A stretch of DNA of 19,297 nt, taken from the NCBI GenBank assembly GCA_030613915.1, contig JAUWKY010000003.1, positions 1 to 19,297 on the forward strand, given 5' to 3'. The position numbers were made by a program, and so were the translations under genes. Under the pieces are notes generated by a model. That model saw only the letters and a program-made list of their open reading frames with translations. It did no database searches and was not told where the DNA came from. This document shows, one piece after another, positions 313 through 18,739 of this stretch (the stretch's first letter is position 1; each line of letters begins with the position of its first letter). This DNA is from Syntrophobacterales bacterium (lineage in GTDB: Bacteria > Desulfobacterota > Syntrophobacteria > BM002).

Positions 313-314
<2 letters not shown>
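133..314. repeat. 182-bp imperfect palindrome (MITE-like or large hairpin element)
   Basis: The two ends are near-identical 20-mers in inverted orientation: AGCCCGGATATTTCATGAAT at 133-152, and its complement with one change at 295-314. The interior arms also match imperfectly, and the centre is a short perfect hairpin (CGTACC at 216-221, loop TGAAC, GGTACG at 227-232). The transcript could therefore fold into one long hairpin. The right end overlaps the gyrB stop codon, so the element lies directly 3' of gyrB and may act as its terminator. No transposase and no clear target duplication are visible. A dispersed non-autonomous element is the likeliest identity; I cannot check its copy number here. 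Confidence 0.7.
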
Positions 315-2754
<2,440 letters not shown>

Positions 2755-2765
2755 TTAAACATGTT

Positions 2766-2774
2766 ATTATACCA
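2766..2774 (-). promoter_or_regulatory. Extended -10 promoter of gyrB
   Basis: On the minus strand the 103-bp dnaN-gyrB gap carries TGGTATAAT, a perfect TATAAT with the TGn extension. The 17-bp-spaced -35 position (TAGGTT) is poor, as is usual for extended -10 promoters. Transcription would start near 2759 and give a leader of about 35 nt. gyrB can thus be expressed independently of dnaA and dnaN. Confidence 0.55.
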
Positions 2775-2827
2775 GCTTGCCACCCAAAAACCTAGCCAGA
2801 ATATTTCATCTTGCGCCAGTCAGCTCA

Positions 2828-3943
2828 TCACAACCGCATCGGCATAACCACCGAAAAGAAGCCCTCGTCTTCTTCACCAGCGATTATGCATGCGCTTGAT
2901 TCATCGATCATCTTTGCCGATATGACCTTGCTCGTCATAACTGCCAGAATCTCCATAAAATAGCGTGGATTAAAGGCGATAGTCATCTCTTCACCCTGGT
3001 AGGTTACAGGAATCTCCTCCCTGGCGTCGCCTATCTCTGGATTGTTGGAAATAATTTCCATATGTTCTGCATTGATCTTACAGCGTATACCGCGGTACCG
3101 ATCAGTTGAGATAATGGACATGCGTCGTAGCATTTCCATGAATCTCGGACGATCAACCTCCAGTACCCTCTCACAATTTTTCGGTACCACTGTGTCATAA
3201 TCTGGGAAGTCGCCATCGATGAGCCTCATAATTAAGGTGGATTCACCTTGTCTGAAGATGGCAGTATTTTCTTGAAAAGCCACCTGCACCTGCTCGCTTT
3301 CTTCTAGAAGCCGACTCAGTTCCAGCATTCCCTTTCTGGGAATTATAATACCCTTGTCAAAAGCGAATTTGGTCACCTCTGGAAGTGGCTTTTGGATGAA
3401 GGCGAGTCGATGACCGTCGGTGGCCACCAATTTTAGACAGACGGGATCCTCGGTCTCCACTTTTTCAAAATATATTCCAGAGAGATTGTATCGTGTCTCC
3501 TCCGTGGAAACAGCAAAGATCGTCTTGTCTATCATTTCCTTCAGTAGGGGCGCTTCCATCTCAACCCACTCTACATCCTCATATTTCATCACTTGAGGGA
3601 ACTCATCCGCTGGAAGTCCCACGAGATTATACTCTGTAGTTCCACTGGAGATATTTACCCACTGGTTTTCTTTCTCAGTGATGCGGAGTTCAGGAAATGG
3701 AAGTTCTTTAACGATCTCATAGAATTTTCGTGCCTGGATAGTAACCGCTCCTTCTTTTGTGACCTTGGCTTCGTGTCTTCCGGTAAAACTGACCTCCAGA
3801 TTGGTTGCGGTTAGATGCAGTTGTTGCTCTTTTGCTTCTAAAAGCACATTGGAAAGAACCGGCATTGAGCTGCGTTTCTCTGCAACAGACTGGGATTTCT
3901 GTAAACCTCTGAGAAGATCATCTCGTTGAATGGTGAGTTCCAT
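2828..3943 (-). CDS. dnaN: DNA polymerase III beta subunit (sliding clamp)
   Basis: This protein forms the dimeric ring that tethers DNA polymerase III to DNA. The 371-aa product is colinear with DnaN over its full length: the N-terminal MELTIQRDDLLRGL segment, the VSTEETRYNLSGIYFE and VATDGHRLAF segments of the middle domain, the DGDFPDY segment, and the C-terminal VMPMRL tail that lines the protein-binding pocket. The start ATG is preceded by an ideal AAGGAGG. It lies 93 bp downstream of dnaA, in the standard dnaA-dnaN order. A promoter in that gap suggests separate transcription. The next gene is gyrB, not recF. Confidence 0.98.
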   Translation of the reverse strand: MELTIQRDDLLRGLQKSQSVAEKRSSMPVLSNVLLEAKEQQLHLTATNLEVSFTGRHEAKVTKEGAVTIQARKFYEIVKELPFPELRITEKENQWVNISSGTTEYNLVGLPADEFPQVMKYEDVEWVEMEAPLLKEMIDKTIFAVSTEETRYNLSGIYFEKVETEDPVCLKLVATDGHRLAFIQKPLPEVTKFAFDKGIIIPRKGMLELSRLLEESEQVQVAFQENTAIFRQGESTLIMRLIDGDFPDYDTVVPKNCERVLEVDRPRFMEMLRRMSIISTDRYRGIRCKINAEHMEIISNNPEIGDAREEIPVTYQGEEMTIAFNPRYFMEILAVMTSKVISAKMIDESSACIIAGEEDEGFFSVVMPMRL

Positions 3944-3999
3944 TACCCCTCCTTATTAAAGGCTTTGATTATTTATATTAAAGTATTGGTAAAGATAAT

Positions 4000-4028
4000 A
4001 TTAAACATAAGGCCTGTATATTTGTAAA
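4000..4028 (-). promoter_or_regulatory. Predicted dnaN promoter
   Basis: In the AT-rich dnaA-dnaN gap the minus strand reads TTTACA, 17 bases, TTTAAT. This is a plausible sigma-70 promoter whose -35 box starts just after the dnaA stop. The same hexamer pair with the same spacing recurs upstream of the tmcC-like gene. Confidence 0.4.
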
Positions 4029-4036
4029 TAACAACA

Positions 4037-5374
4037 CTAGTCCTTTGATTTTTCAATTACTTCTTCCTTATAATCTTCCAATAGTTTCTTTTCAATCTCA
4101 ACGATTCGTTCAGCAAATACTCTATTTCTTCTTATCTCAGCACGTACCTTGCGACAGGCATAAATAACTGTGGAATGATCCCGACCGCCAAAGGAGTCCC
4201 CAATGGCAGCGTAGGTTGACCCAGTCAGCTTTCTGCTAAGGTACATCCCGGCTTGGCGAGCAATTACCAGGGGCCGGGCTTTAGTTGCTCCTGGGAGCGC
4301 TTCCAAGGAGACACCATAGGCAGCACACACTTCCTTTTGGATGGCTTGCATGGAAAGTCTTTTCGGTCTAGGAGTGGTGTTTCCATGGATAGCAAAGGAT
4401 CTCTCTTTCAGGCTCGGAAGACTGCCCTCCTTTTCAACAATTTCTTGCAACTTTTCCACAAAGTCCTTGATCTCGTGAAAATTAAGAGGCCCATGTTCTG
4501 CAAGATATCGGCAGATCTCTTTAGATGCCGGCATCTTACTTGCGCCGAGGAAGGTTTCGATTACTTGGTAGCAACCGTCAATATCCGGCTCTTGAATGCG
4601 TGCTATCAATCCCCAGCCTAACCGAGAGCGAAGGCCCAGAGAGAGATCGGGGACCTGGTGAGGAAGGCGAGTGGCAGTAAACACCATTCTTGTCCCCACG
4701 TCGTAGCACCAATTAAATATTTCTCTGAGATGTTGCTGGAAATTTCCCTCAGGAGGCACTTGATGGACATCATCCACCAACAGAACCTTGATACCGCTCA
4801 GGCTCTGCCGGAGTGCTTCGTATGGGGAAGGCGGTATGGAGGGACCGAAGACAAGGAGATTTCGACAACTGAGATAGGCGACACTGCCGTCATTGTTGGC
4901 CTGCCAATCATTGCCGATAGCGTGGAGAAGATGAGTCTTGCCTAGTCCCGGAGGCCCTTCAATAAACAGAGGATTGAAGGCGGCATTAGCGTCCTGACAG
5001 ACATCCTTGGCTGCAGCAAAGGCAAAGCGGTTAAAGGGAGCTAATACGTAGTTCTCAAAGGTCTGCGAGGTCTGGAAGGTTGTCGCAAGTGGTACATTGC
5101 CTATGAATGGGCGCTGGGTTTTGGAGGACTTACCCTGACCATCAGGCTTTTGCAGGAGAAGCCGGACACCGCTATCTATCATGCGGCAGGATGATTGCAT
5201 GAGTGCAAGGTAATGTTCCTCAATCCAGTAATAATGGAATCGGCTGGGGGCCTGTAAGACAAGGTGGCCGCTTTGCAGGGTAGTAACCTTAAGAGGCTCT
5301 ATCCATTGCTGGAACTGCTCAGCGGTCAGAGTCTGTTTCAAAACCCTGCGTGCCTCGGGCCACAGGGAGTCCAT
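4037..5374 (-). CDS. dnaA: Chromosomal replication initiator DnaA (divergent)
   Basis: DnaA is an AAA+ ATPase that binds DnaA boxes and opens the replication origin. The 445-aa protein shows domain I (about residues 1-75), a short linker, the AAA+ domain (Walker A GPPGLGKTH from about residue 140; Walker B LLVDD; a sensor/Arg region with LRSRLGWGL) and the C-terminal DNA-binding domain with the signature GGRDHSTVIYACRKV. ATG at 5372-5374 is chosen because GAGGT sits seven bases upstream; a TTG two codons earlier would lie on top of that site. The Walker A region deviates from the usual GGVGLGKTH, and the segment around VDDVHQVPPEGN is also unusual. Gene order with dnaN and gyrB supports a genuine DnaA rather than Hda or a DnaC-like paralogue. 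Confidence 0.93.
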   Translation of the reverse strand: MDSLWPEARRVLKQTLTAEQFQQWIEPLKVTTLQSGHLVLQAPSRFHYYWIEEHYLALMQSSCRMIDSGVRLLLQKPDGQGKSSKTQRPFIGNVPLATTFQTSQTFENYVLAPFNRFAFAAAKDVCQDANAAFNPLFIEGPPGLGKTHLLHAIGNDWQANNDGSVAYLSCRNLLVFGPSIPPSPYEALRQSLSGIKVLLVDDVHQVPPEGNFQQHLREIFNWCYDVGTRMVFTATRLPHQVPDLSLGLRSRLGWGLIARIQEPDIDGCYQVIETFLGASKMPASKEICRYLAEHGPLNFHEIKDFVEKLQEIVEKEGSLPSLKERSFAIHGNTTPRPKRLSMQAIQKEVCAAYGVSLEALPGATKARPLVIARQAGMYLSRKLTGSTYAAIGDSFGGRDHSTVIYACRKVRAEIRRNRVFAERIVEIEKKLLEDYKEEVIEKSKD

Positions 5375-5485
5375 GGGCAAACCTCGTTTCCAAACCGGCT
5401 TCGCCTGCTGTGGCGAAAACTGCCGAGGGAGATATCCATCCTAACGGGATTGGTGTCGTGACCTATATCCTTATAAACTCATTGA

Positions 5486-9243: not shown

Positions 9244-12200
9244 ATGTGCGCTGAAAAAGCCGGTTCAGGAAACGGTGTAGTAGGCTCGGTATTGGTGGCG
9301 GGCGGCGGCATCGCCGGGATTCAGGCAGCTTTGGATCTGGCAAATTCCGGCTATTACGTCCACTTGGTGGAAAAGTCGCCGGCCATCGGTGGGGTTATGG
9401 CGCAGTTGGATAAGACCTTCCCCACCAACGACTGCTCCATGTGTATCATATCCCCTAAATTGGTGGAATGTGGGCAGCATCCCAATATTAACCTGCTTAC
9501 CTGTGCTGCCTTAGAAAACGTCGCCGGTGCCCAGGGCCGTTTGCAGGCAACGATCCGCCAGAAGCCGCGATACATCAGCTTGGACAAGTGCACCGGCTGT
9601 GGTGATTGCGCTGAGGTTTGCCCGGTTTCAATGCCCAGCGAGTTCGACCAGGGTATTGGCCCCAGAAAGGCCACCTACAAACCTTACCCCCAGGCCATTC
9701 CAGGGGAATATGTGATCGACAAGCGCGACCGATCCCCCTGCACCCAGGCGTGTCCCAATCATGTCAACGCCCACGCATATATAGCGCTCATTGCCCAGGG
9801 CAAGTACCGGGAAGCCATGGAGGTTATTCTCAGGACCCTGCCCTTTCCTGGAGTTATCGGTCGCATCTGCCCCCATCCCTGTGAGACCGCCTGCCGGCGG
9901 GGCGAAGTTGATGAGCCGCTCTCCATCTGTGCCCTGAAGCGTTTCGTGGCTGATCAGGTGGATATTGAAGAGTTACCCATACCCGAGATTGAAAAGCGGG
10001 AAGAGAAGGTGGCTATCATTGGTTCCGGTCCGGCGGGACTGACTGCCGCCCACTTTCTTGCTCTGGAGGGGTATCAGGTGACCGTATTCGAATCCCGGTC
10101 AGCGGCCGGTGGTATGTTGCGGGTGGGCATCCCGGACTACAGACTGCCTCCCGAGGTGCTGGACCAGGAGATCCGGGCCATCACCCGACTGGGGGTTGAA
10201 ATAAAACTCAATACTGCTCTTGGCCGGGATGTAAGCATTGATGGGCTTTTATCAGAGGGCTACAAAACGGTCTACCTCGCTATCGGCGCCCATAATAATT
10301 TGCAGCTGAACATCCCAGGGGAGGACGGTGAAGGAGTCATCCCAGGCGTTGGGTTTCTCCGCCAGGTCAATCTGGGCGGAGTGACCGGATTGGAGGGAAG
10401 GGCGGTGATCGTCGGTGGCGGTGATGTGGCCATTGATGCGGCCCGTGCCGCTTTGCGTTTGGGAGCTGAGAAGGTCACCATTCTGTATCGACGCACCCGG
10501 GCTGAAATGCCTGCCCGGGAAAACGAGGTGGAAGATGCCCTGGCCGAAGGCATAGAAATCGAGTACCTCTCCGCACCCCAGCAGATCCTCACCAAAGACA
10601 ATAAGGTGGTTGGGATTGTTTGCCTTAGAATGGAGCTGGGGGAGCCGGATTCCTCCGGCAGACGTCGGCCGGTACCGGTACCTGACAGCGAGTTCATCGT
10701 CGAGACCGAATGGGTGGTGCCCGCCATCGGTCAAACCCCAGATTCCGACTTTCTGGCTGAAACTTCAGGGGTGGAACTGAGCCGGTGGGGAACCATTGAG
10801 GCTGATCCGGTGACCTTTGCCACCAATGTGGAGGGTGTCTTTGCTGGCGGCGATGCCCACACCGGTCCCTGGGTGGCCATCGGCGCGGTGGCCGCAGGCC
10901 GGGAAGCGGCCATTTCCATCTCACGTTATCTGCGGGGCGAAGACCTTCTTGCCGGTCGGGAGCCTATTGAGTTCCCGCAGGAAAATTTCGTGCCGATTCC
11001 CGAAGACATTGAGGAGAGGCCCCGGGCTGAAATGCCCATGTTGGCTATGGCTGCAAGGCGGACAGGTTTTGCCGAAGTGGAGCCGGGACTCACCGAAGAG
11101 CAGGCCAGGGCCGAGGCAGAAAAGTGCCTCAACTGCGCGTCCTGCTGTGAGTGCTTAGAGTGCGTGGCCGCCTGTCAGGCCCAAGCTGTGGAACACAGCA
11201 TGCAGGAGCAGGAAATCACTTTGGAGGTGGGCTCGGTGATTCTAGCGCCCGGGGCGGAAACCTTCGACCCTTCCGTGATAGATACCTATCTCTACGGCCA
11301 CCAGCCAAATGTGGTTACCAGCCTGGAATTCGAGCGGATTCTCAGTGCTTCTGGTCCCTATCAGGGCCATCTGCTGCGGCCATCCGACCATAAAGAACCC
11401 AAGAAGATTGCCTGGATCCAATGCGTGGGGTCCCGCAATGTGCATGATTGCGACAACGGTTACTGCTCTGCAGTCTGCTGCATGTACGCCATAAAAGAGG
11501 CAATTGTTGCCAAAGAACACCTGGCTGAGCCATTGGATGCGGCGATTTTTTTCATGGATATGCGCACTTACGGGAAGGATTTTGAAAGATATTACGATCG
11601 CGCTCGAGAGGAGCACGGGGTTCGTTTTATCCGCTCTCGTATACATGCCATTGATCCGGCTGCTGACGGCAACTTGATGATCAAGTTTGTCGCGGAAGAC
11701 GGTGAGAGGCAAGAAGAAGAATTCGACATGGTGGTTCTGTCGGTGGGCTTACAGCCCTCCAATGACGGCGTGGAGTTGGCAGAGCGTCTCGGGGTTGAGC
11801 TGAACCACTACCGCTTTGCCGAGACCACCAGTTTCGAGCCCGTGAAGACCTCTCGAGAGGGCATTTACGTGTGTGGCGTTTTTAGGGATTGTAAGGACAT
11901 TCCCATCTCGGTAATGGAGGCAAGTGCGGCTGCGGCCGCGGCTGCCACCCCACTGGCGGAAAGCCGCTTCACCCTAACCACGACAAAAGAGCTTCCGCCC
12001 GAACGCTCCGTGGAAGGAGATGAACCCCGGGTAGGGGTTTTTGTTTGTAACTGTGGGATTAACATTGGCGGGGTGGCGGATGTGCCGGCGGTGGCCGCAT
12101 ATGCCAAATCACTGCCTCAGGTAGTGTATGTGGCCGAAAACCTTTTCACCTGTTCGCAGGATACCCAAGAGAAAATTCGCGAGACGGTCAAGGAACACAA

Positions 12201-13692
12201 TATCAATCGGGTGGTGGTGGCCGCCTGCTCGCCCCGCACCCACGAACCCCTCTTCCAAGAGACCATCCGTGAAGTAGGGCTGAACGCCTATCTCTTTGAA
12301 ATGGCAAACATTCGCGACCAAAACACCTGGGTGCATCAAAGCAGCCCCGAAGCTGCTACGGAAAAGGCCAAAGACCTGGTGCGGATGGCAGTTGCCAGGG
12401 CATCATTACTTGAACCATTGCAGCCGGTTACCCTTGGCCTCACCAAGACGGCGCTGGTGGTGGGTGGCGGCGTAGCTGGCATGGTGGCTGCCCTGACCTT
12501 GGCAGACCAGGGTTTTCCAGTGCACCTGGTGGAAATGACAGATAAACTGGGGGGCAATGCCCTGAAATTGCGGGTAACCTGGAAAGGCGAAGATGTTAGT
12601 GCCTATCTCAATCAGTTGGTGAATCGAGTCTTAGAACATAAAAACATTGATATCCACCTTAACATCAAAGTCGCTGGAAACAGTGGGTTTGTGGGGAACT
12701 TTGAAACCATTGTGGAAAAGGTGGACGAGCCTGGGCAAAGGAGCACTATACAACATGGTGTCACCATTGTCGCTACTGGTGGTAAAGGGCTGGAGCCCAC
12801 AGAATACCTTTATGGAGAAGATGAGCGGGTACTCACCCAGTTGGAGCTGGATGGACGGTTAAAAGACAATGGTGTGGCCCCAAAGGAGGTTGGTACGGCG
12901 GTCTTTATTCAATGTGTGGGGTCGCGGGAGCCGGATCGTCCCTATTGTAGCAAAGTTTGTTGCACCCACTCTGTGGAGAGCGCCATTAAGCTAAAAGAGC
13001 TTAAGCCCGAGATGGATGTCTACATCCTCTATCGAGACATGCGCACCTATGGCTTCAGGGAGGATCTTTTCAAAGAGGCCCGTGAGAAAGGGGTTCTCTT
13101 TCTGCGCTATACTCTGGACAAAAAGCCTCAGGTGAACAACGGCAACGGCCAATTGAAAGTTCAAGTGCACGATGCCATTTTGGCGCGCGAAGTCCTCATT
13201 CCCACGGATTTGTTGGTTTTGGCGGCTGCCATCCTGCCCAATGAGGCGAAAGAGGTTGCCAAGAACTTTAAAGTCTCGCAGAATAGCGACGGCTTTTTTA
13301 TGGAGGCTCACGCCAAACTGAGGCCGGTGGACCTTGGCAGTGACGGCCTCTTCCTATGCGGTCTGGCCCATTACCCCAAACCCATTGATGAGGCCATCAC
13401 CCAGGCCCAGGCAGCCGCAGCCAGGGCGGCCACAGTTCTGGCCAAAGACGTGATTACCCTGGAGGCGGTGAAGGCGGTGGTGGAGCCGGATCTTTGCGCC
13501 GTTTGTCTCACCTGCGTGCGCACCTGTCCATATGAGGTGCCGTATATCGGCGAGGAAGGAGCTGCGGTGATTGACCCGGCTGGATGCCGTGGTTGCGGTG
13601 CCTGTGTGGCGGAGTGTCCGGGCAAGGCCATCAGCTTGCAGCATTTCACCGACAGGCAGTTGATCGCTAAGTGCGATGCTTTGCTGTTGTGA
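9244..13692 (+). CDS. hdrA: HdrA-type flavoprotein with GltD/NfnB insertion and duplicated HdrA module
   Basis: This is a 1482-aa soluble FAD/Fe-S protein of the HdrA family, the subunits in which flavin-based electron bifurcation takes place. Module 1 has FAD motif GGGIAG (residues 20-25), TFPTNDCSMC (58-67) and the first ferredoxin half-site CTGCGDCAEVCP (116-127). There a GltD/NfnB-like module is inserted (about 160-590), with its Cys-rich N terminus, FAD motif GSGPAG (260-265), nucleotide motif GGGDVAIDAAR (near 391) and GGDAHTGP. The second half-site then follows (CLNCASCCECLECVAAC from 628), and CVGSR at 727. Module 2 starts with VCNCGINIGG (Cys935, Cys937), has FAD motif GGGVAG (1074-1079), CVGSR (1224) and a C-terminal 2[4Fe-4S] ferredoxin (from 1419 and 1448). 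ATG follows AGGAG. mvhD follows; HdrB and HdrC are absent. The role as an NAD(P)H- and ferredoxin-linked partner of MetFV is inferred. Confidence 0.92.
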   Translation: MCAEKAGSGNGVVGSVLVAGGGIAGIQAALDLANSGYYVHLVEKSPAIGGVMAQLDKTFPTNDCSMCIISPKLVECGQHPNINLLTCAALENVAGAQGRLQATIRQKPRYISLDKCTGCGDCAEVCPVSMPSEFDQGIGPRKATYKPYPQAIPGEYVIDKRDRSPCTQACPNHVNAHAYIALIAQGKYREAMEVILRTLPFPGVIGRICPHPCETACRRGEVDEPLSICALKRFVADQVDIEELPIPEIEKREEKVAIIGSGPAGLTAAHFLALEGYQVTVFESRSAAGGMLRVGIPDYRLPPEVLDQEIRAITRLGVEIKLNTALGRDVSIDGLLSEGYKTVYLAIGAHNNLQLNIPGEDGEGVIPGVGFLRQVNLGGVTGLEGRAVIVGGGDVAIDAARAALRLGAEKVTILYRRTRAEMPARENEVEDALAEGIEIEYLSAPQQILTKDNKVVGIVCLRMELGEPDSSGRRRPVPVPDSEFIVETEWVVPAIGQTPDSDFLAETSGVELSRWGTIEADPVTFATNVEGVFAGGDAHTGPWVAIGAVAAGREAAISISRYLRGEDLLAGREPIEFPQENFVPIPEDIEERPRAEMPMLAMAARRTGFAEVEPGLTEEQARAEAEKCLNCASCCECLECVAACQAQAVEHSMQEQEITLEVGSVILAPGAETFDPSVIDTYLYGHQPNVVTSLEFERILSASGPYQGHLLRPSDHKEPKKIAWIQCVGSRNVHDCDNGYCSAVCCMYAIKEAIVAKEHLAEPLDAAIFFMDMRTYGKDFERYYDRAREEHGVRFIRSRIHAIDPAADGNLMIKFVAEDGERQEEEFDMVVLSVGLQPSNDGVELAERLGVELNHYRFAETTSFEPVKTSREGIYVCGVFRDCKDIPISVMEASAAAAAAATPLAESRFTLTTTKELPPERSVEGDEPRVGVFVCNCGINIGGVADVPAVAAYAKSLPQVVYVAENLFTCSQDTQEKIRETVKEHNINRVVVAACSPRTHEPLFQETIREVGLNAYLFEMANIRDQNTWVHQSSPEAATEKAKDLVRMAVARASLLEPLQPVTLGLTKTALVVGGGVAGMVAALTLADQGFPVHLVEMTDKLGGNALKLRVTWKGEDVSAYLNQLVNRVLEHKNIDIHLNIKVAGNSGFVGNFETIVEKVDEPGQRSTIQHGVTIVATGGKGLEPTEYLYGEDERVLTQLELDGRLKDNGVAPKEVGTAVFIQCVGSREPDRPYCSKVCCTHSVESAIKLKELKPEMDVYILYRDMRTYGFREDLFKEAREKGVLFLRYTLDKKPQVNNGNGQLKVQVHDAILAREVLIPTDLLVLAAAILPNEAKEVAKNFKVSQNSDGFFMEAHAKLRPVDLGSDGLFLCGLAHYPKPIDEAITQAQAAAARAATVLAKDVITLEAVKAVVEPDLCAVCLTCVRTCPYEVPYIGEEGAAVIDPAGCRGCGACVAECPGKAISLQHFTDRQLIAKCDALLL

Positions 13693-13708: not shown

Positions 13709-13822
13709 ATGCTATTCTTTTCAGCTTTCACCTGGTGGTGGTACAAAAATAAATTGAGAAATCCTTTGGGAGGTTTGATGAAGACGAGATTTGCAGCGGG
13801 AGAACGAAATGGAAAATTTTGA
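13709..13822 (+). CDS. Possible 37-aa small ORF between hdrA and mvhD
   Basis: An ATG at 13709 has CAGGAG five bases upstream, as good a ribosome site as the neighbours have. It opens a 37-codon frame rich in aromatics (FTWWWYKNK) that ends at a TGA overlapping the mvhD start by 14 bases in another frame. It could be a leader peptide that couples translation into mvhD, or a chance ORF in the 116-bp gap. I recognise no family, and there is no independent coding evidence. Confidence 0.2.
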   Translation: MLFFSAFTWWWYKNKLRNPLGGLMKTRFAAGERNGKF

Positions 13823-14246
13823 GCCGCAAATTCTGGCATTCTGTTGCATGTATTGAGCATACTCGGCCGCGGACCTGGCAGGTTCCATGCGATTGAGCTA
13901 TCCGAGTAATGTTAAGGTCATCAACGTGCCCTGCACTGGTAGAGTGGATATCCTGCACCTGCTCAAAGCTATAGAAGATGGTGCCGACGGTGTCTATGTG
14001 GCCGGCTGCTTGGAAGGAGACTGCCACTATCTCACTGGTAACTTGAAAGCCAAAAAGCGGGTAGCCTATGTCAAGAAAGTGCTTGAGGATATTGGGATGG
14101 AACCAGAGCGAGTGGAGATGTACAACCTCAGCGCTGCCCAAGGCACACGGTTTGCCGAGATTGCTCGGGAATTCACCGAGCGCATTCTGGACCTGGGCCC
14201 AAGCCCAGTGGGGTCAGAGGCCAAATCCGGAGGCGAGGCTGCTTGA
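13809..14246 (+). CDS. mvhD: MvhD-type iron-sulfur subunit, selenoprotein (Sec16)
   Basis: MvhD is the small [2Fe-2S] protein that carries electrons between HdrA and a partner such as hydrogenase, formate dehydrogenase or, in acetogens, MetFV. The 145-aa product begins MENFEPQILAFCCMY, then an in-frame TGA (13854-13856), then AYSAADLAGSMR. In other MvhD proteins this position is the last Cys of FCCNWC-x-Y-x-GADLAG, so the TGA reads as selenocysteine in a CxxU motif (Cys13, Sec16). Further conserved cysteines are Cys42 (PCTGR), Cys67 and Cys72 (GCLEGDC), likely cluster ligands. ATG 13809 follows a weak GGGAGA. Without Sec decoding the gene would appear to start at the internal ATG 13887 and lose its N-terminal cluster motif. 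It lies between hdrA and metV. Confidence 0.9.
13854..13891 (+). promoter_or_regulatory. Predicted bacterial SECIS in mvhD
   Basis: Immediately after the UGA the mRNA can fold GGACCU (13871-13876), loop GGC, AGGUUCC (13880-13886) with one bulged U, supported by CGC/GCG below (13868-13870, 13889-13891). The loop begins 21 nt after the UGA and its first two bases are G. Spacing, bulged U and loop G all fit bacterial SECIS rules. Confidence 0.65.
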
Positions 14247-14369: not shown

Positions 14370-15044
14370 ATGGTTGTGGGCGAAAGTAAGCCGATTGAAG
14401 AAATTTTGAGCATGGTGGCAGATTTCAACAAGATCCTGCTCACCGGTTGCAAAGGCTGTGTCACCGTCTGTAATGCGGGAGGACAAAAAGAGGTGGGCAT
14501 CCTGGCCTCGGCCCTGAAAATTGCGCGAAAGAAGGAGGGACGGGAGATTGAGATCGATGAGATCACCCTGGAGCGCCAGTGTGACCCGGAATACATTGAC
14601 CAGTTGGAGGATCCCATAGCCAAAAACGGTTATGATGCGGTGGTGTCCATGGCCTGCAGTGTGGGCCCCCAGTATATCGCCAAGCACTATGAGGACATGC
14701 TGGTGTTTCCGGCGCTTAATACAACTTTTATTGGCGGCTCCCTGGAGCACGGAGTGTGGGCCGAGTTTTGCCAGGCCTGCGGGGCCTGTGGTATTCACAA
14801 CTTTGGTGCTCTATGCCCGATTGCCCGCTGTGCCAAGAGCCTGTTGAACGGACCCTGCGGCGGTTCTGCCGGAGGAAAATGTGAGATCAGCCAAGAGACC
14901 GACTGTGTCTGGCATCTCATCTACGAGCGCATGAGTCGCCTGGGGCAATTGGACAAAATGGCCAATGTAGTCATGTTCAAAGACTGGACTAGCAGCCGCG
15001 ACGGCGGACCTCGCAAGATCGTCAGGGAGGATTTAAAGCAATGA
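14370..15044 (+). CDS. metV: MetV, zinc/Fe-S partner of methylene-THF reductase
   Basis: MetV-type proteins (methylene-THF reductase C-terminal-like) pair with MetF in acetogens and other Wood-Ljungdahl organisms. They are needed for its activity and link it to the HdrA/MvhD electron chain. The 224-aa product has a Cys-rich N terminus (GCKGCVTVC, Cys27, Cys30, Cys34), the conserved MACSVGPQ segment, and a C-terminal cluster of cysteines (CQACGACG, ALCPIARCAKSLLNGPCGG, GKCE) able to bind metal or Fe-S. The start follows AAGGAGGG at good spacing. It overlaps metF by four bases (ATGA), so the two are translationally coupled. A 123-bp gap separates it from mvhD, with a small CACCAT/ATGGTG hairpin at 14332-14346. 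Confidence 0.92.
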   Translation: MVVGESKPIEEILSMVADFNKILLTGCKGCVTVCNAGGQKEVGILASALKIARKKEGREIEIDEITLERQCDPEYIDQLEDPIAKNGYDAVVSMACSVGPQYIAKHYEDMLVFPALNTTFIGGSLEHGVWAEFCQACGACGIHNFGALCPIARCAKSLLNGPCGGSAGGKCEISQETDCVWHLIYERMSRLGQLDKMANVVMFKDWTSSRDGGPRKIVREDLKQ

Positions 15045-15967
15045 AAGCTGGAAGCAACTTGGAAAAGGTCTTTGCCGCAGGGCACCTTGCGGTCACCGGT
15101 GAGTTGGGGCCGCCCCGTGGTGCGGATACGGGGCATATTCACGAGAAGGGTAAGTATCTCATAGGCATGGTAGACTCGGTAAACGTCACCGACAATCAGA
15201 CTGCGGTGGTGCGGATGGCCAGCATGGCAGTCTGCCGCCTGCTGTTGGATATGGGGATCGAGCCCAACTTGCAGATGGTCTGCCGGGATCGCAACCGGCT
15301 GGCCATCCAGGCTGATTTGTTAGGGGCTTCAGGTCTGGGCATCAAGAATGTGCTTTGCCTGTCTGGCGACCACCAGAAGTTCGGTGATCACCCCCAGGCC
15401 AAGAATGTCTTTGACATCGACTCCATGCAGCTTATTGCCACCGTGAAGAAAATGAGGGATGAGGGCAAACTCATCAATGACCACGAGTGTGAAGGGGTTC
15501 CCCCGTACTTTATTGGTGCAGCGGTAAATCCCTTCGCCGATCCCTTTGATTTCAGGGTGACCCGTCTCGCCAAGAAAATTGAAGCTGGGGTGGATTTCAT
15601 CCAGACTCAGTGTATCTACAATATGGAGAAATTTCGCACCTATATGCAGCAGGCCTACGACCAGGGGCTCACCGAGAAATGCTACATTATGGCTGGGATT
15701 ACCCCGCTGAAATCGGTGGGTATGGCGCGCTATATGCAGAAATTCGTGCCCGGCTTGGAGGTGACTGAAGACCACATCGAGCGGTTAAAGGGAGTGGATA
15801 AGAAGAAACAAGGTGATGAAGGCATCAAAATCGCCATCGAGCAGATGCAGGAAGTCAAGGAGATGAAAGGCATTGCCGGTATTCACGTCATGGCAATTGA
15901 GTGGGAAGAGCGGGTAGAAGAGCTTGTTACCGGCGCCGGTCTGCTGCCTCGCCCTCAGGTAGCATAG
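15041..15967 (+). CDS. metF: Methylenetetrahydrofolate reductase
   Basis: MetF is a flavoprotein that interconverts 5,10-methylene-THF and 5-methyl-THF, the last redox step of the methyl branch before the corrinoid protein and CODH/ACS. The 308-aa product is colinear with the family: an N-terminal strand with the catalytic Glu (TGELGPPRGAD), DSVNVTDN, the NLQMVCRDRNR segment, LCLSGDH, the AAVNPF strand, and the C-terminal DFIQTQCIYN and GITPLKS segments. The start overlaps the metV stop by four bases and has GGGAGG upstream. Clustering with HdrA and MvhD suggests that its flavin exchanges electrons with that complex rather than directly with NADH; this is inferred from Moorella-type MetFV-Hdr-MvhD clusters. 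Confidence 0.95.
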   Translation: MKAGSNLEKVFAAGHLAVTGELGPPRGADTGHIHEKGKYLIGMVDSVNVTDNQTAVVRMASMAVCRLLLDMGIEPNLQMVCRDRNRLAIQADLLGASGLGIKNVLCLSGDHQKFGDHPQAKNVFDIDSMQLIATVKKMRDEGKLINDHECEGVPPYFIGAAVNPFADPFDFRVTRLAKKIEAGVDFIQTQCIYNMEKFRTYMQQAYDQGLTEKCYIMAGITPLKSVGMARYMQKFVPGLEVTEDHIERLKGVDKKKQGDEGIKIAIEQMQEVKEMKGIAGIHVMAIEWEERVEELVTGAGLLPRPQVA

Positions 15968-16242: not shown

Positions 16243-16902
16243 ATGAACCTAGTAACTTTATATGAATTGCTCCGTGGACCCCTGCTCTGGCTGGCATTCG
16301 GGGTTTTTTTCGGCGGGATGGTGCTAAGGGTTATTCTTTTTTACCGGTTGAGCAAAAGAAAAGACGGGGTAATCTACCGCTTCTTCAGCTGGAAATGGCT
16401 CTGGCTCTCCATCTTTCGCTGGATTGTCCCGCTCAATGAGACGGCCAAGAAAAATCCCATTGTTACCTTGGTCGGTTTTGTCTTTCATATTTGTCTCATC
16501 GCGACTCCCATTTTCCTACTGGCGCACGGGGTTCTCTGGTACGAGTCCTGGGAGATCAGCTGGTGGTCCCTCTCTGAGCAAGTGGCCGACTACATGACCC
16601 TCATCGTCATCGGCTGCGGTCTCTTTTTCGCAATCCGCCGCATGGTCTTGCCCCACGTGCGCATCGTGACCACGGCTGCCGATTACTTATTGTTAGCGGT
16701 GACCCTGACTCCCTTTGTAACCGGCTACCTGGCTTATCACCAGTATTTTGATTACAATACCGTGCTCATTCTGCACATGTTTTTTGGGGAACTCATGTTG
16801 GTGGTTATTCCCTTTACCAAGTTGAGCCATTTTCTGATGTTTTTCTTTTCCAGGGCGATTACCGGGATGGAATTTGGCAGGCGGAGTGCTCCATCCTGGT
16901 GA
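16243..16902 (+). CDS. TmcC-like membrane heme b subunit (NarI/DsrM-type)
   Basis: This 219-aa integral membrane protein resembles the cytochrome b subunits of Tmc, Dsr and nitrate reductase complexes, which carry electrons between a cytoplasmic HdrD-like subunit and the periplasmic or quinone side. Five hydrophobic segments are visible, at about residues 12-34, 72-95, 115-133, 146-165 and 172-203. Histidines within or beside them (His82, His95, His166, His178, His196) are candidate heme b ligands. The loop FRWIVPLNETAKKNPIVT is typical of TmcC. It is followed 49 bp later by the HdrD-like gene and then a tetraheme cytochrome, the three-component core of a Tmc complex. Gene order is C-B-A, unlike the tmcABCD order I recall from Desulfovibrio. 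Confidence 0.82.
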   Translation: MNLVTLYELLRGPLLWLAFGVFFGGMVLRVILFYRLSKRKDGVIYRFFSWKWLWLSIFRWIVPLNETAKKNPIVTLVGFVFHICLIATPIFLLAHGVLWYESWEISWWSLSEQVADYMTLIVIGCGLFFAIRRMVLPHVRIVTTAADYLLLAVTLTPFVTGYLAYHQYFDYNTVLILHMFFGELMLVVIPFTKLSHFLMFFFSRAITGMEFGRRSAPSW

Positions 16903-16951
16903 TTCCAGGAACCGCTGCTGTTGCGAGAACTTGTTATCTGAGGAGGAGCAA

Positions 16952-18244
16952 ATGGCGGAAAAAGTAGCCGTTGATCCCCAGGCTTTCAAGAAAGCCGTAG
17001 ATGACAGGACCAATGCCCGCCTCAAGATGTGGCTAGAGATATGCGCCCATTGCGGCCTTTGTGCTGACACCTGCCACTTTTACCTCTCCAATGATCGGGA
17101 TCCCAAGCTGATCCCGGCTATCAAGGGCAAGAAGGTCCTGGAGGCCTTCAAGAAGAAAGACAAGATTGATGAGGCCTTTTTAGAGGAGCTTTACTGGACG
17201 GTCTATGGCGATTGCACCATGTGCAGGCGTTGCACCATGTTCTGCCCTTTTGGCATTGACATTGCCACCATAACCAGTACAGGCCGTGGTCTCTGCGTTT
17301 CTCAGGGCAAGGTGCCCGAGAACCTGGTGAAAACCATTGAGAGTTATTACGAGTATGGTAACCAGATGGAGGTGAGCGAGGAGGACTGGATTGATACCCT
17401 GCAGTGGATGGAGGAAGAACTCCAGGAAGAGCTTCCCGGTGCCACTATCCCCATCGACAAGAAGGGGGCCAATCTTCTTTACACGGTCAATGCCAGGGAG
17501 CCCAAGTTCTACCCCATGGACATCTCCCAGGCTGCAATGGTTTTTTATCTGGCCGGCGAAGATTGGACCATGTCTTCCAAAGGCTGGGACGATACTAATC
17601 TTGCCATGTTTGCCGGCGATCTAAAAGCTGCAGGCTATGTGTCGCAACTGGTTCGCGACGCGGCCGAGGAATTGGAGGTAAAACGCGTCGCCATAACTGA
17701 ATGAGGGCACGCCCTGCGTGCGCTTCAGTTTGAAGCGCCTGTCTGGTTGGGACGCGACCATGAGTTTGAGGTGGTACACAGCGTAACGCTTTTTGCCGAG
17801 TATTTACGTGAGGGGCGACTCAAGTTGGACAAGAGCGTGTTTGGTGACCAGCGCTGCACCTACCAGGACCCCTGCAATGTCAGCCGTAACGGCGGCTGCG
17901 GCAAAGATGCTCGGGAGATCATCCAGTATCTCTGTGAAGATTTTGTTGAGATGGAACCACACGGCGACTATAATTTTTGTTGTGGAGGCGGTGGTGGTGC
18001 TATACCCATGGCCGGAGCTTTCAGGGACAGGCGAATAAGATCCGGCAAGGTGAAAGCGGACGAGATCCGGGCCACCGGAGCGAGCATCTGCTTTACCCCG
18101 TGTCACAACTGTTACGATCAGATCAGAGATCTGAGCAAGGAGTATGAGCTGGGAATCAAGGTGCTTTCTTTCAAGGAGATGTTCGAAGAGGCTCTGATAA
18201 TTCCGGAAGAATTGAAAGCCAAGGAAGAGGACGAAGAGGAATAA
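16952..18244 (+). CDS. TmcB/HdrD-like Fe-S protein with CCG domain, selenoprotein (Sec251)
   Basis: This is the cytoplasmic HdrD-like subunit expected to exchange electrons with the TmcC heme protein. One frame runs from ATG 16952 (AGGAGGAG upstream) to 18244 with a single internal TGA at 17702-17704. The 430-aa product has two [4Fe-4S] motifs (CAHCGLCADTC from Cys31; CTMCRRCTMFCP from Cys88), then a first CCG-like half with few cysteines, then ITE-U-GHALRAL, where the family has Cys (TECGHA). The classic CCG half follows: Cys302, Cys308, CCGGGGG (Cys343-344) and CFTPCHNC (Cys380, 384, 387). Continuous homology on both sides and a SECIS-like hairpin support Sec rather than a nonsense mutation. 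A naive caller would give two genes, 16952-17704 and 17747-18244. Confidence 0.9.
17702..17738 (+). promoter_or_regulatory. Predicted bacterial SECIS in tmcB-like gene
   Basis: A perfect 7-bp stem, GCGCTTC (17720-17726) with GAAGCGC (17732-17738), encloses the loop AGUUU. The loop starts 23 nt after the UGA and has G at its second position, matching the bacterial SECIS rule. Confidence 0.75.
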
Positions 18245-18283: not shown

Positions 18284-18739
18284 ATGCGCCGGGGACGTTT
18301 TCTGGTATTGATGGTGATTCTGGGTATCGCAACTTTCTTGTGGGCGGTCAACCTGGAGGCTCAGCCAGATGATATTTCCTTGGATGATAACGAAGTATTC
18401 ACCGGTCGGAGCCGGCCCGCGGTGGAATTTCCCCACATGCAACACATCGACGCTGAAATCGAGTGCAGTGATTGCCACCATCGGTTTAAGGGCGGAGAGA
18501 ACGTTGTGGATGAGGGTGAACTGGAAGAAGATGCAGAAGGCATAAAATGTTCATCCTGCCACAAGAGTGAAGCGGGTTTTCGGTTTAAGCCTGACTTGGA
18601 TCCAACCAAGCGGACCTTGCAGCAGGCCTATCACCGGATGTGCATGAGCTGTCATCGCCAAGTAAAGAAAGAAAACAAGACGGCTGGAGCTGTTACTTGT
18701 GGTGGTTGCCACCCGAAGAAAAAGGCTGCCCAGTCCTGA
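18284..18739 (+). CDS. Tetraheme cytochrome c3 (TmcA-like)
   Basis: This exported class III cytochrome c shuttles electrons in the periplasm, typically between hydrogenases or formate dehydrogenases and a transmembrane complex. The 151-aa precursor starts with a signal peptide (RRGRFLVLMVILGIATFLWA, cleavage probably near AQA/NLEAQ). Four CxxCH heme sites are visible: CSDCH (61-65), CSSCH (89-93), CMSCH (120-124) and CGGCH (139-143). FPHMQH before the first site and YHRM before the third provide distal His ligands, as in type II c3/TmcA. GGGAG lies upstream of the start. It follows the TmcB-like gene by 39 bp, so it is very probably the electron donor or acceptor of that complex. No tmcD-like gene follows in the window. 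Confidence 0.88.
   Translation: MRRGRFLVLMVILGIATFLWAVNLEAQPDDISLDDNEVFTGRSRPAVEFPHMQHIDAEIECSDCHHRFKGGENVVDEGELEEDAEGIKCSSCHKSEAGFRFKPDLDPTKRTLQQAYHRMCMSCHRQVKKENKTAGAVTCGGCHPKKKAAQS

Follow-up and report, generated by a model that had tools for sequence, protein, structure and literature searches.

A tmcB-like gene with an in-frame TGA, very probably encoding a selenocysteine-containing subunit of a Tmc/Hmc-type complex, in a Syntrophobacterales bacterium

Iron–sulfur oxidoreductases that carry selenocysteine (Sec, U) have been listed before. A selenoprotein family named 'Fe-S oxidoreductase (GlpC)', COG0247, appears in a 2006 listing (PMC1794560), and GlpC selenoproteins are also found in the tables of PMC9312934. 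The motif UGH, with PTHR43551 and WP_174406253.1, is given in tables of PMC9312934 and PMC13188914, and DP1009 is listed in PMC1914089. In Deltaproteobacteria these GlpC/UGH proteins are described beside hdrA and frhD, and the printed operon reads glpC-hdrA-frhD-frhG-frhA. HdrD4 and HdrF2 of Desulfobacterium autotrophicum, which are of HdrD type and have parts resembling HdrC and HdrB, likewise contain Sec; the TmcBCA clusters of this organism are not described as selenoproteins in the accessible text of PMC2702500. The gene considered here lies at 16952..18244 (+) in a 19,297-nucleotide stretch of DNA (the window; contig JAUWKY010000003.1) from a Syntrophobacterales bacterium that is uncultured and resembles sulfate reducers. 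It is a tmcB/hmcF-like gene, identified by translation and profile match and read through one TGA, and is flanked by tmcC and a tmcA-like gene rather than by the partners of the printed GlpC operon. It is very probably a genuine selenoprotein gene, as judged from comparative genomics. The gene is a further member of the known UGH selenoprotein family in an operon setting not found in print: no earlier report of a Sec-containing TmcB, or of Sec in a Tmc operon, was found in the literature searched.

Under the standard code the gene falls into two open reading frames (ORFs), 16874-17704 and 17747-18244. An earlier note on this DNA had joined them into one gene of 430 amino acids (aa), and read-through translation confirms this: with TGA read as Sec, 16952-18244 yields 430 residues, a single TGA and a TAA stop at 18242-18244. 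The TGA, at 17702..17704 (+), is codon 251 and lies in a TEUGHA motif, placed by translation and homologue alignment. The same note had set the UGA at the conserved cysteine (Cys) of TECGHA. A homologue search at E <= 0.001 found 2985 proteins, and the 120 listed have Cys at this column in 119 cases. When the window protein, its U written as C, is aligned with 62 of these, C251, G252, H253 and A254 are invariant. Standard annotation halves such genes: the one listed homologue without Cys at the column, protein P0099, is a 250-aa stub, 92% identical, that stops exactly before column 251 and stands for 328 member sequences.

Sec at residue 251 is strongly supported because the TGA is common to 13 genomes, a covarying hairpin resembling a selenocysteine insertion sequence (SECIS) follows it, selA, selB and selD are present, and other relatives have Cys. 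Residue 251 is almost certainly decoded as Sec, to judge from these comparisons. Codons read in the DNA are TGA in the 13 genomes and TGC or TGT in 29 fetched relatives; the latter are a sample, as class and phylum Cys matches were fetched in part. For the family of the window's genome (G000) 12 genomes were covered, and these are also the 12 covered for its order. A close copy (>= 76% identity) has TGA in six of these and Cys in four. G007 alone is counted in both groups, having one copy of each kind. In G003 the only relative is a distant Cys form (46%), and no match at E <= 1e-80 was found in G004 or G008. The class search (55 genomes, E <= 1e-125) added three TGA genes (G013, G014, G030) and the phylum search (395 genomes drawn, E <= 1e-110) four (G100, G164, G192, G390). 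The Sec counts are lower bounds, because at most four candidates per genome were scored in the phylum search. The Sec form is seen in five family codes (f1, f2, f5, f15, f39), and TGA is likewise present in L021, a nearly identical gene (98%) from another assembly. Three genomes listed with one TGA (G143, G127, G092) were rejected as Sec forms at this position: L082 reads TGT, and L083 and L084 read GECGHA. A further 24 loci were left uncounted as distant relatives, mostly GECGH with one AECGH; in L048 and L051 the column lies outside the printed stretch.

The two ORFs of the standard code could instead represent two proteins, one of 250 aa and one starting at TTG 17747, or a pseudogene or a sequencing error. 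Such a reading is highly improbable. Purifying selection acts on both sides of the TGA, which recurs in 13 genomes and also in another assembly; the hairpin covaries and Sec machinery is present. Against the six closest Sec relatives, the ratio of nonsynonymous to synonymous substitution (dN/dS, NG86 method) is 0.025-0.098 downstream of the TGA and 0.034-0.139 upstream, several dS values being saturated and the upstream part taking in a few codons before the ATG. Two separate genes, a pseudogene and a sequencing error were rejected on the shared TGA and this selection.

Bacterial SECIS elements are hairpins just 3' of the UGA with a G early in the apical loop. The window has such a SECIS-like hairpin, GCGCUUCA-GUU-UGAAGCGC, at 17720..17738 (+) with its loop at 17728-17730, recognized by pairing and conservation. 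It had been described as a perfect 7-bp stem with loop AGUUU, 23 nt after the UGA. The seven-pair stem is indeed GCGCUUC (17720-17726) and GAAGCGC (17732-17738) around AGUUU (17727-17731); the A and last U of AGUUU pair too, giving eight pairs and a GUU loop that follows the G-early rule. The distance of 23 nt is that to the loop, and the stem begins 15 nt past the TGA. In a fixed-place pairing test of 42 rows, which omits the near-copy L021 and a second, incomplete G059 gene cut off by the end of its contig, all 13 Sec genes keep seven or eight of the eight pairs, and their loop is GUU except for a single GUA, whereas 28 of 29 Cys genes form zero to five. The remaining one, G058 (L087:1766-3049), is Cys by TGT with 7/8 pairs and loop GUU, and is likely to hold the fossil of a former Sec gene's hairpin.

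In the alignment of the 13 Sec rows, 96.2% of cells pair against a shuffled mean of 86.5, and slid controls pair at 11.5-46.2%. Nine cells are changed on both sides (shuffled mean 2.6), a value reached in 0/500 shuffles. Compensatory switches run from A-U to G-C at pair 26/30, from G-C to C-G at 21/35 and, once, from C-G to A-U at 20/36. RNAalifold recovers 7/8 pairs from the same rows. When the best gapless hairpin was sought without fixing its place, the mean score was 7.25 for 14 Sec rows, L021 among them, and 4.15 for 30 Cys rows, the second G059 copy among them; owing to a G-G mismatch this search finds only four pairs in G164 and G100 and a different hairpin in G192. Synonymous recoding with the window's codon usage matches the stem score somewhere in the tested range in 624 of 100,000 sequences, and matches it with a G in the first two loop positions in 187 of 100,000. 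Conservation in relatives is the stronger evidence for the hairpin. The hairpin also seems to constrain the protein. The sequence is RALxFEAP or RAVxFEGP in 12 of 13 Sec forms and RSLxFESP in the four Cys copies from the family of the window (f1), so that A in the former stands in the place of S in the latter.

Several observations weigh against a Sec-decoding element. Pairs with change on both sides number three, as high in 30/500 shuffles, and further pair types also number three, as high in 367/500. The three f15 genes show the G-G mismatch at one of the eight pairs, and in G030 the outermost pair is broken. Folding of single sequences is unremarkable, with z-scores of -0.9 to -1.5 for three short stretches round the hairpin, and some Cys stretches are as stable in other folds (G038, -17.2 kcal/mol, against -13.5 for the window); single-sequence folding energy is therefore no proof of a SECIS. 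The window has no Rfam match at gathering scores, a silence that speaks neither for nor against the hairpin. The machinery has a gap as well. G000, a 2.25 Mb assembly that is 79% complete, has selA (629.5 bits), selB (401.9) and selD (377.4), each above cut-off, and its tRNA-Sec gene (selC) did not exceed the Rfam cut-off among 150 of 227 candidates scored in this incomplete assembly. The same holds for G001 and G002 (150 candidates scored each), and a BLAST search with a relative's selC, run without a positive control, found no match in G000, G001 or G002. Nine of the 12 family genomes have tRNA-Sec above the cut-off (150 candidates scored per genome), and the gap in the other three is assumed to reflect missing assembly. 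A chance hairpin was rejected on the recoding test, the covariation and the contrast in pairing between Sec and Cys genes. The selD gene of G000 (C280:557-1480, L134) itself has one in-frame TGA, so that SelD probably contains Sec.

The product is HmcF/TmcB-like and is probably the cytoplasmic iron–sulfur subunit of a Tmc/Hmc-type membrane complex, as judged from its sequence. Full-length profile matches to HmcF (NF045711, 469.8 bits, cut-off 750) and TmcB (NF045724, 406.2 bits, cut-off 735) stay below their cut-offs, as does that to DsrK (NF045796, 206 bits, cut-off 400), and membership of the three equivalogs was rejected on these curated cut-offs. It resembles TmcB/HmcF of sulfate reducers in its TmcC and TmcA-like partners and differs from them in having Sec for Cys and in scoring below both cut-offs. 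Two 4Fe-4S motifs (C31, C34, C37, C41 and C88, C91, C94, C98) precede a complete C-terminal CCG motif (Pfam PF02754 at 302-392; C308, C343, C344, C384, C387). Placement of the UGA between two CCG-type halves was thus roughly right: only the C-terminal motif is complete, and the first is degenerate, with U251 as its remnant and no Cys between residues 116 and 250. HdrB and HdrD with two noncubane clusters have two complete five-Cys CCG motifs, and this protein has one. It does combine, as the UGH proteins do, that motif with an Fe4S4 dicluster and a CCG domain.

EtfD (9ojn) and HdrB (5odc) share the fold, including a second CCG domain with ligands of a noncubane cluster; by alignment, the tmcB-like protein has lost the ligands of the first cluster except residue 251. 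TEUGHA aligns with C581-P-H583-C584 of EtfD, so that Sec251 falls on a ligand of the lost cluster and A254 where EtfD has Cys584. His253 aligns with His583, which in EtfD ligates the neighbouring noncubane [4Fe-4S] cluster. Homology through EtfD thereby supports the earlier suggestion of Sec near a catalytic-type Fe-S site, and a redox-active selenol at 251 is inferred to face the noncubane cluster.

The following mechanism is likely to be the best overall explanation, as far as a Sec-decoded Tmc/Hmc-type subunit with a selenolate facing the noncubane cluster is concerned. SelB and tRNA-Sec would decode UGA 251 at the hairpin, whose loop is 23 nt downstream. Electrons moving between the two cubane clusters and TmcC/cytochrome would reach a single noncubane [4Fe-4S] cluster, with C308, C343, C344, C384, C387 and His253 as its ligands. 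Of the other, HdrB-like site for a first cluster only residue 251 would survive, leaving a selenolate (a thiolate in Cys forms) in a vacated pocket opposite the noncubane cluster. There the selenolate would most likely make and break a bond to a disulfide-type substrate, with the cluster as electron relay, and a selenol would speed the disulfide step or poise it at lower potential. The candidate substrate is DsrC, which Tmc is predicted to reduce (PMC10553843); G000 has dsrA. This disulfide step is put forward tentatively, at somewhat less than even chances. The authors of the EtfD structure argue that the His ligand renders the cluster non-catalytic, which weakens the case for disulfide chemistry at the cluster itself.

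The same argument favours a rather unlikely alternative, in which residue 251, as Sec or Cys, is no reaction partner itself and serves to tune the noncubane cluster, either by ligating it or from the second shell, the subunit only moving electrons. His253 aligns with the EtfD ligand, and the EtfD cluster is described as fully coordinated. Residue 251 is, on the other hand, the sole ligand of the first cluster that was kept, and each of the 62 aligned homologues has Cys there, which argues for a role of its own; Sec would also be costly for a spectator. In the literature found, no role is assigned to the lone Cys of CCG proteins of the TmcB/HmcF-like type.

Sec and Cys have been exchanged repeatedly at this position. 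A tree of 54 rows (14 Sec and 26 Cys TmcB-type rows and 14 paralogues; G143, with 39 readable residues, left out) has at least seven Sec/Cys changes, six forced by well-supported branches and seven to eight in bootstraps, and gives no direction. These changes, and the two copies kept by G007, would suit a near-neutral exchange, for example by selenium supply, without distinct chemistry. Such neutrality is unlikely: Sec occurs in five family codes, the apparent constraint of the hairpin on the protein has a cost, and two more paralogous clades have UGH at the same column. The repeated exchange together with UGH in three paralogous clades makes this residue the one to test. Clusters of this type are central to sulfate reduction and to methanogenesis, and Sec would offer a spectroscopic and mass handle on them (Se extended X-ray absorption fine structure, 77Se, alkylation).

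In G007 the Sec copy (L096:2333-3604) lies in a tmc operon, and the Cys copy (L112:4390-5676) lies elsewhere with no tmcC nearby. Selenium-free spare copies are known for methanogen hydrogenases, and the Cys copy may by analogy be such a spare.

The further UGH clades read LLPEUGHAY/VLPEUGHAY (10 rows) and NTEUGHE (2 rows; L126:3872-4996 (+), L127:3992-5116 (-)). The first includes L099:5985-7121 (-), L095:1428-2573 (+) and L118-L125, with LLPEUGHAYFATRLGLQ and variants, and has by eye a different hairpin, GCGACCA-GGCU-UGGUC-U-GC. hdrA or mvhD is present on the same stretch in several of its loci, including L119, L120, L121, L123, L095 and L118, and neither is seen in L122, L124 and L125. This clade may be nearer the GlpC family as printed, a comparison made by motif and operon only. 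The distance between the two Sec paralogues is about 3 kb or less in G009 and G011.

The tmcB-like gene lies downstream of tmcC, the membrane anchor subunit (16243..16902 (+); NF045723, 252.7 bits, cut-off 240), and upstream of a tmcA-like class III cytochrome c gene (18284..18739 (+); NF045722, 82.3 bits, below the cut-off of 114; Pfam PF02085 above cut-off). Further upstream, an hdrA gene with a GltD-like NAD(P)-binding part (9244..13692 (+), 1482 aa, no in-frame TGA by ORF translation) is followed by an mvhD/vhuD-like gene (13809..14246 (+); NF045873, 154.6 bits, below the cut-off of 215). The latter has a TGA at 13854-13856 (CCMYU), which locates the second selenoprotein gene that had been claimed nearby; on its sequence it is a probable selenoprotein. 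At 14370..15044 (+) lies a gene which we take to be metV from its ORF and the gene order, with no NCBIfam match, and at 15041..15967 (+) a metF (methylenetetrahydrofolate reductase)-like gene whose best NCBIfam matches are below cut-off. A P-loop ATPase gene of CooC/MinD type, presumably cooC-like, has weak NCBIfam matches below cut-off and is cut by the contig end (18984..19297 (+)).

The order hdrA-mvhD-metV-metF-tmcC-tmcB-tmcA-cooC-like is common to G002 and G009 (Sec) and to G001 and G006 (Cys); G005, G007 and G011 show parts of it on shorter contigs, and the methyl-branch genes of G010 are not adjacent. In the other families viewed, tmcC-tmcB persists and the neighbours vary; G100 has fhs-hdrA-mvhD-metV-metF beside the tmc genes on the opposite strand. 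The idea of a Sec-dependent electron path shared by the two selenoproteins is suggestive, given this recurring order, and is tempered by the Cys tmcB that occupies the same operon slot in the close relatives G001 and G006, which shows that Sec is not obligatory for the operon. G005 apparently also has a Cys tmcB in this slot, on a contig that starts at tmcC. A bolder reading is distinctly unlikely: as a labile selenolate in direct contact with the noncubane cluster, whether its partner or its ligand, Sec251 would catalyse disulfide exchange, and the Tmc-type complex would connect the hdrA-mvhD-metVF methylene-tetrahydrofolate module with the periplasmic cytochrome pool. If true, it would amount to a selenium-dependent branch of energy conservation.

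Two observations concern the surroundings. The hdrA gene at 9244-13692 heads the metVF cluster, and no hdrB or hdrC was seen there; the place of HdrBC may be taken by TmcB or by the UGH paralogues. At 313-5380 (-), inspection of translations identifies gyrB, dnaN and dnaA, so that a replication-origin-like region lies beside the methyl-branch and tmc genes.
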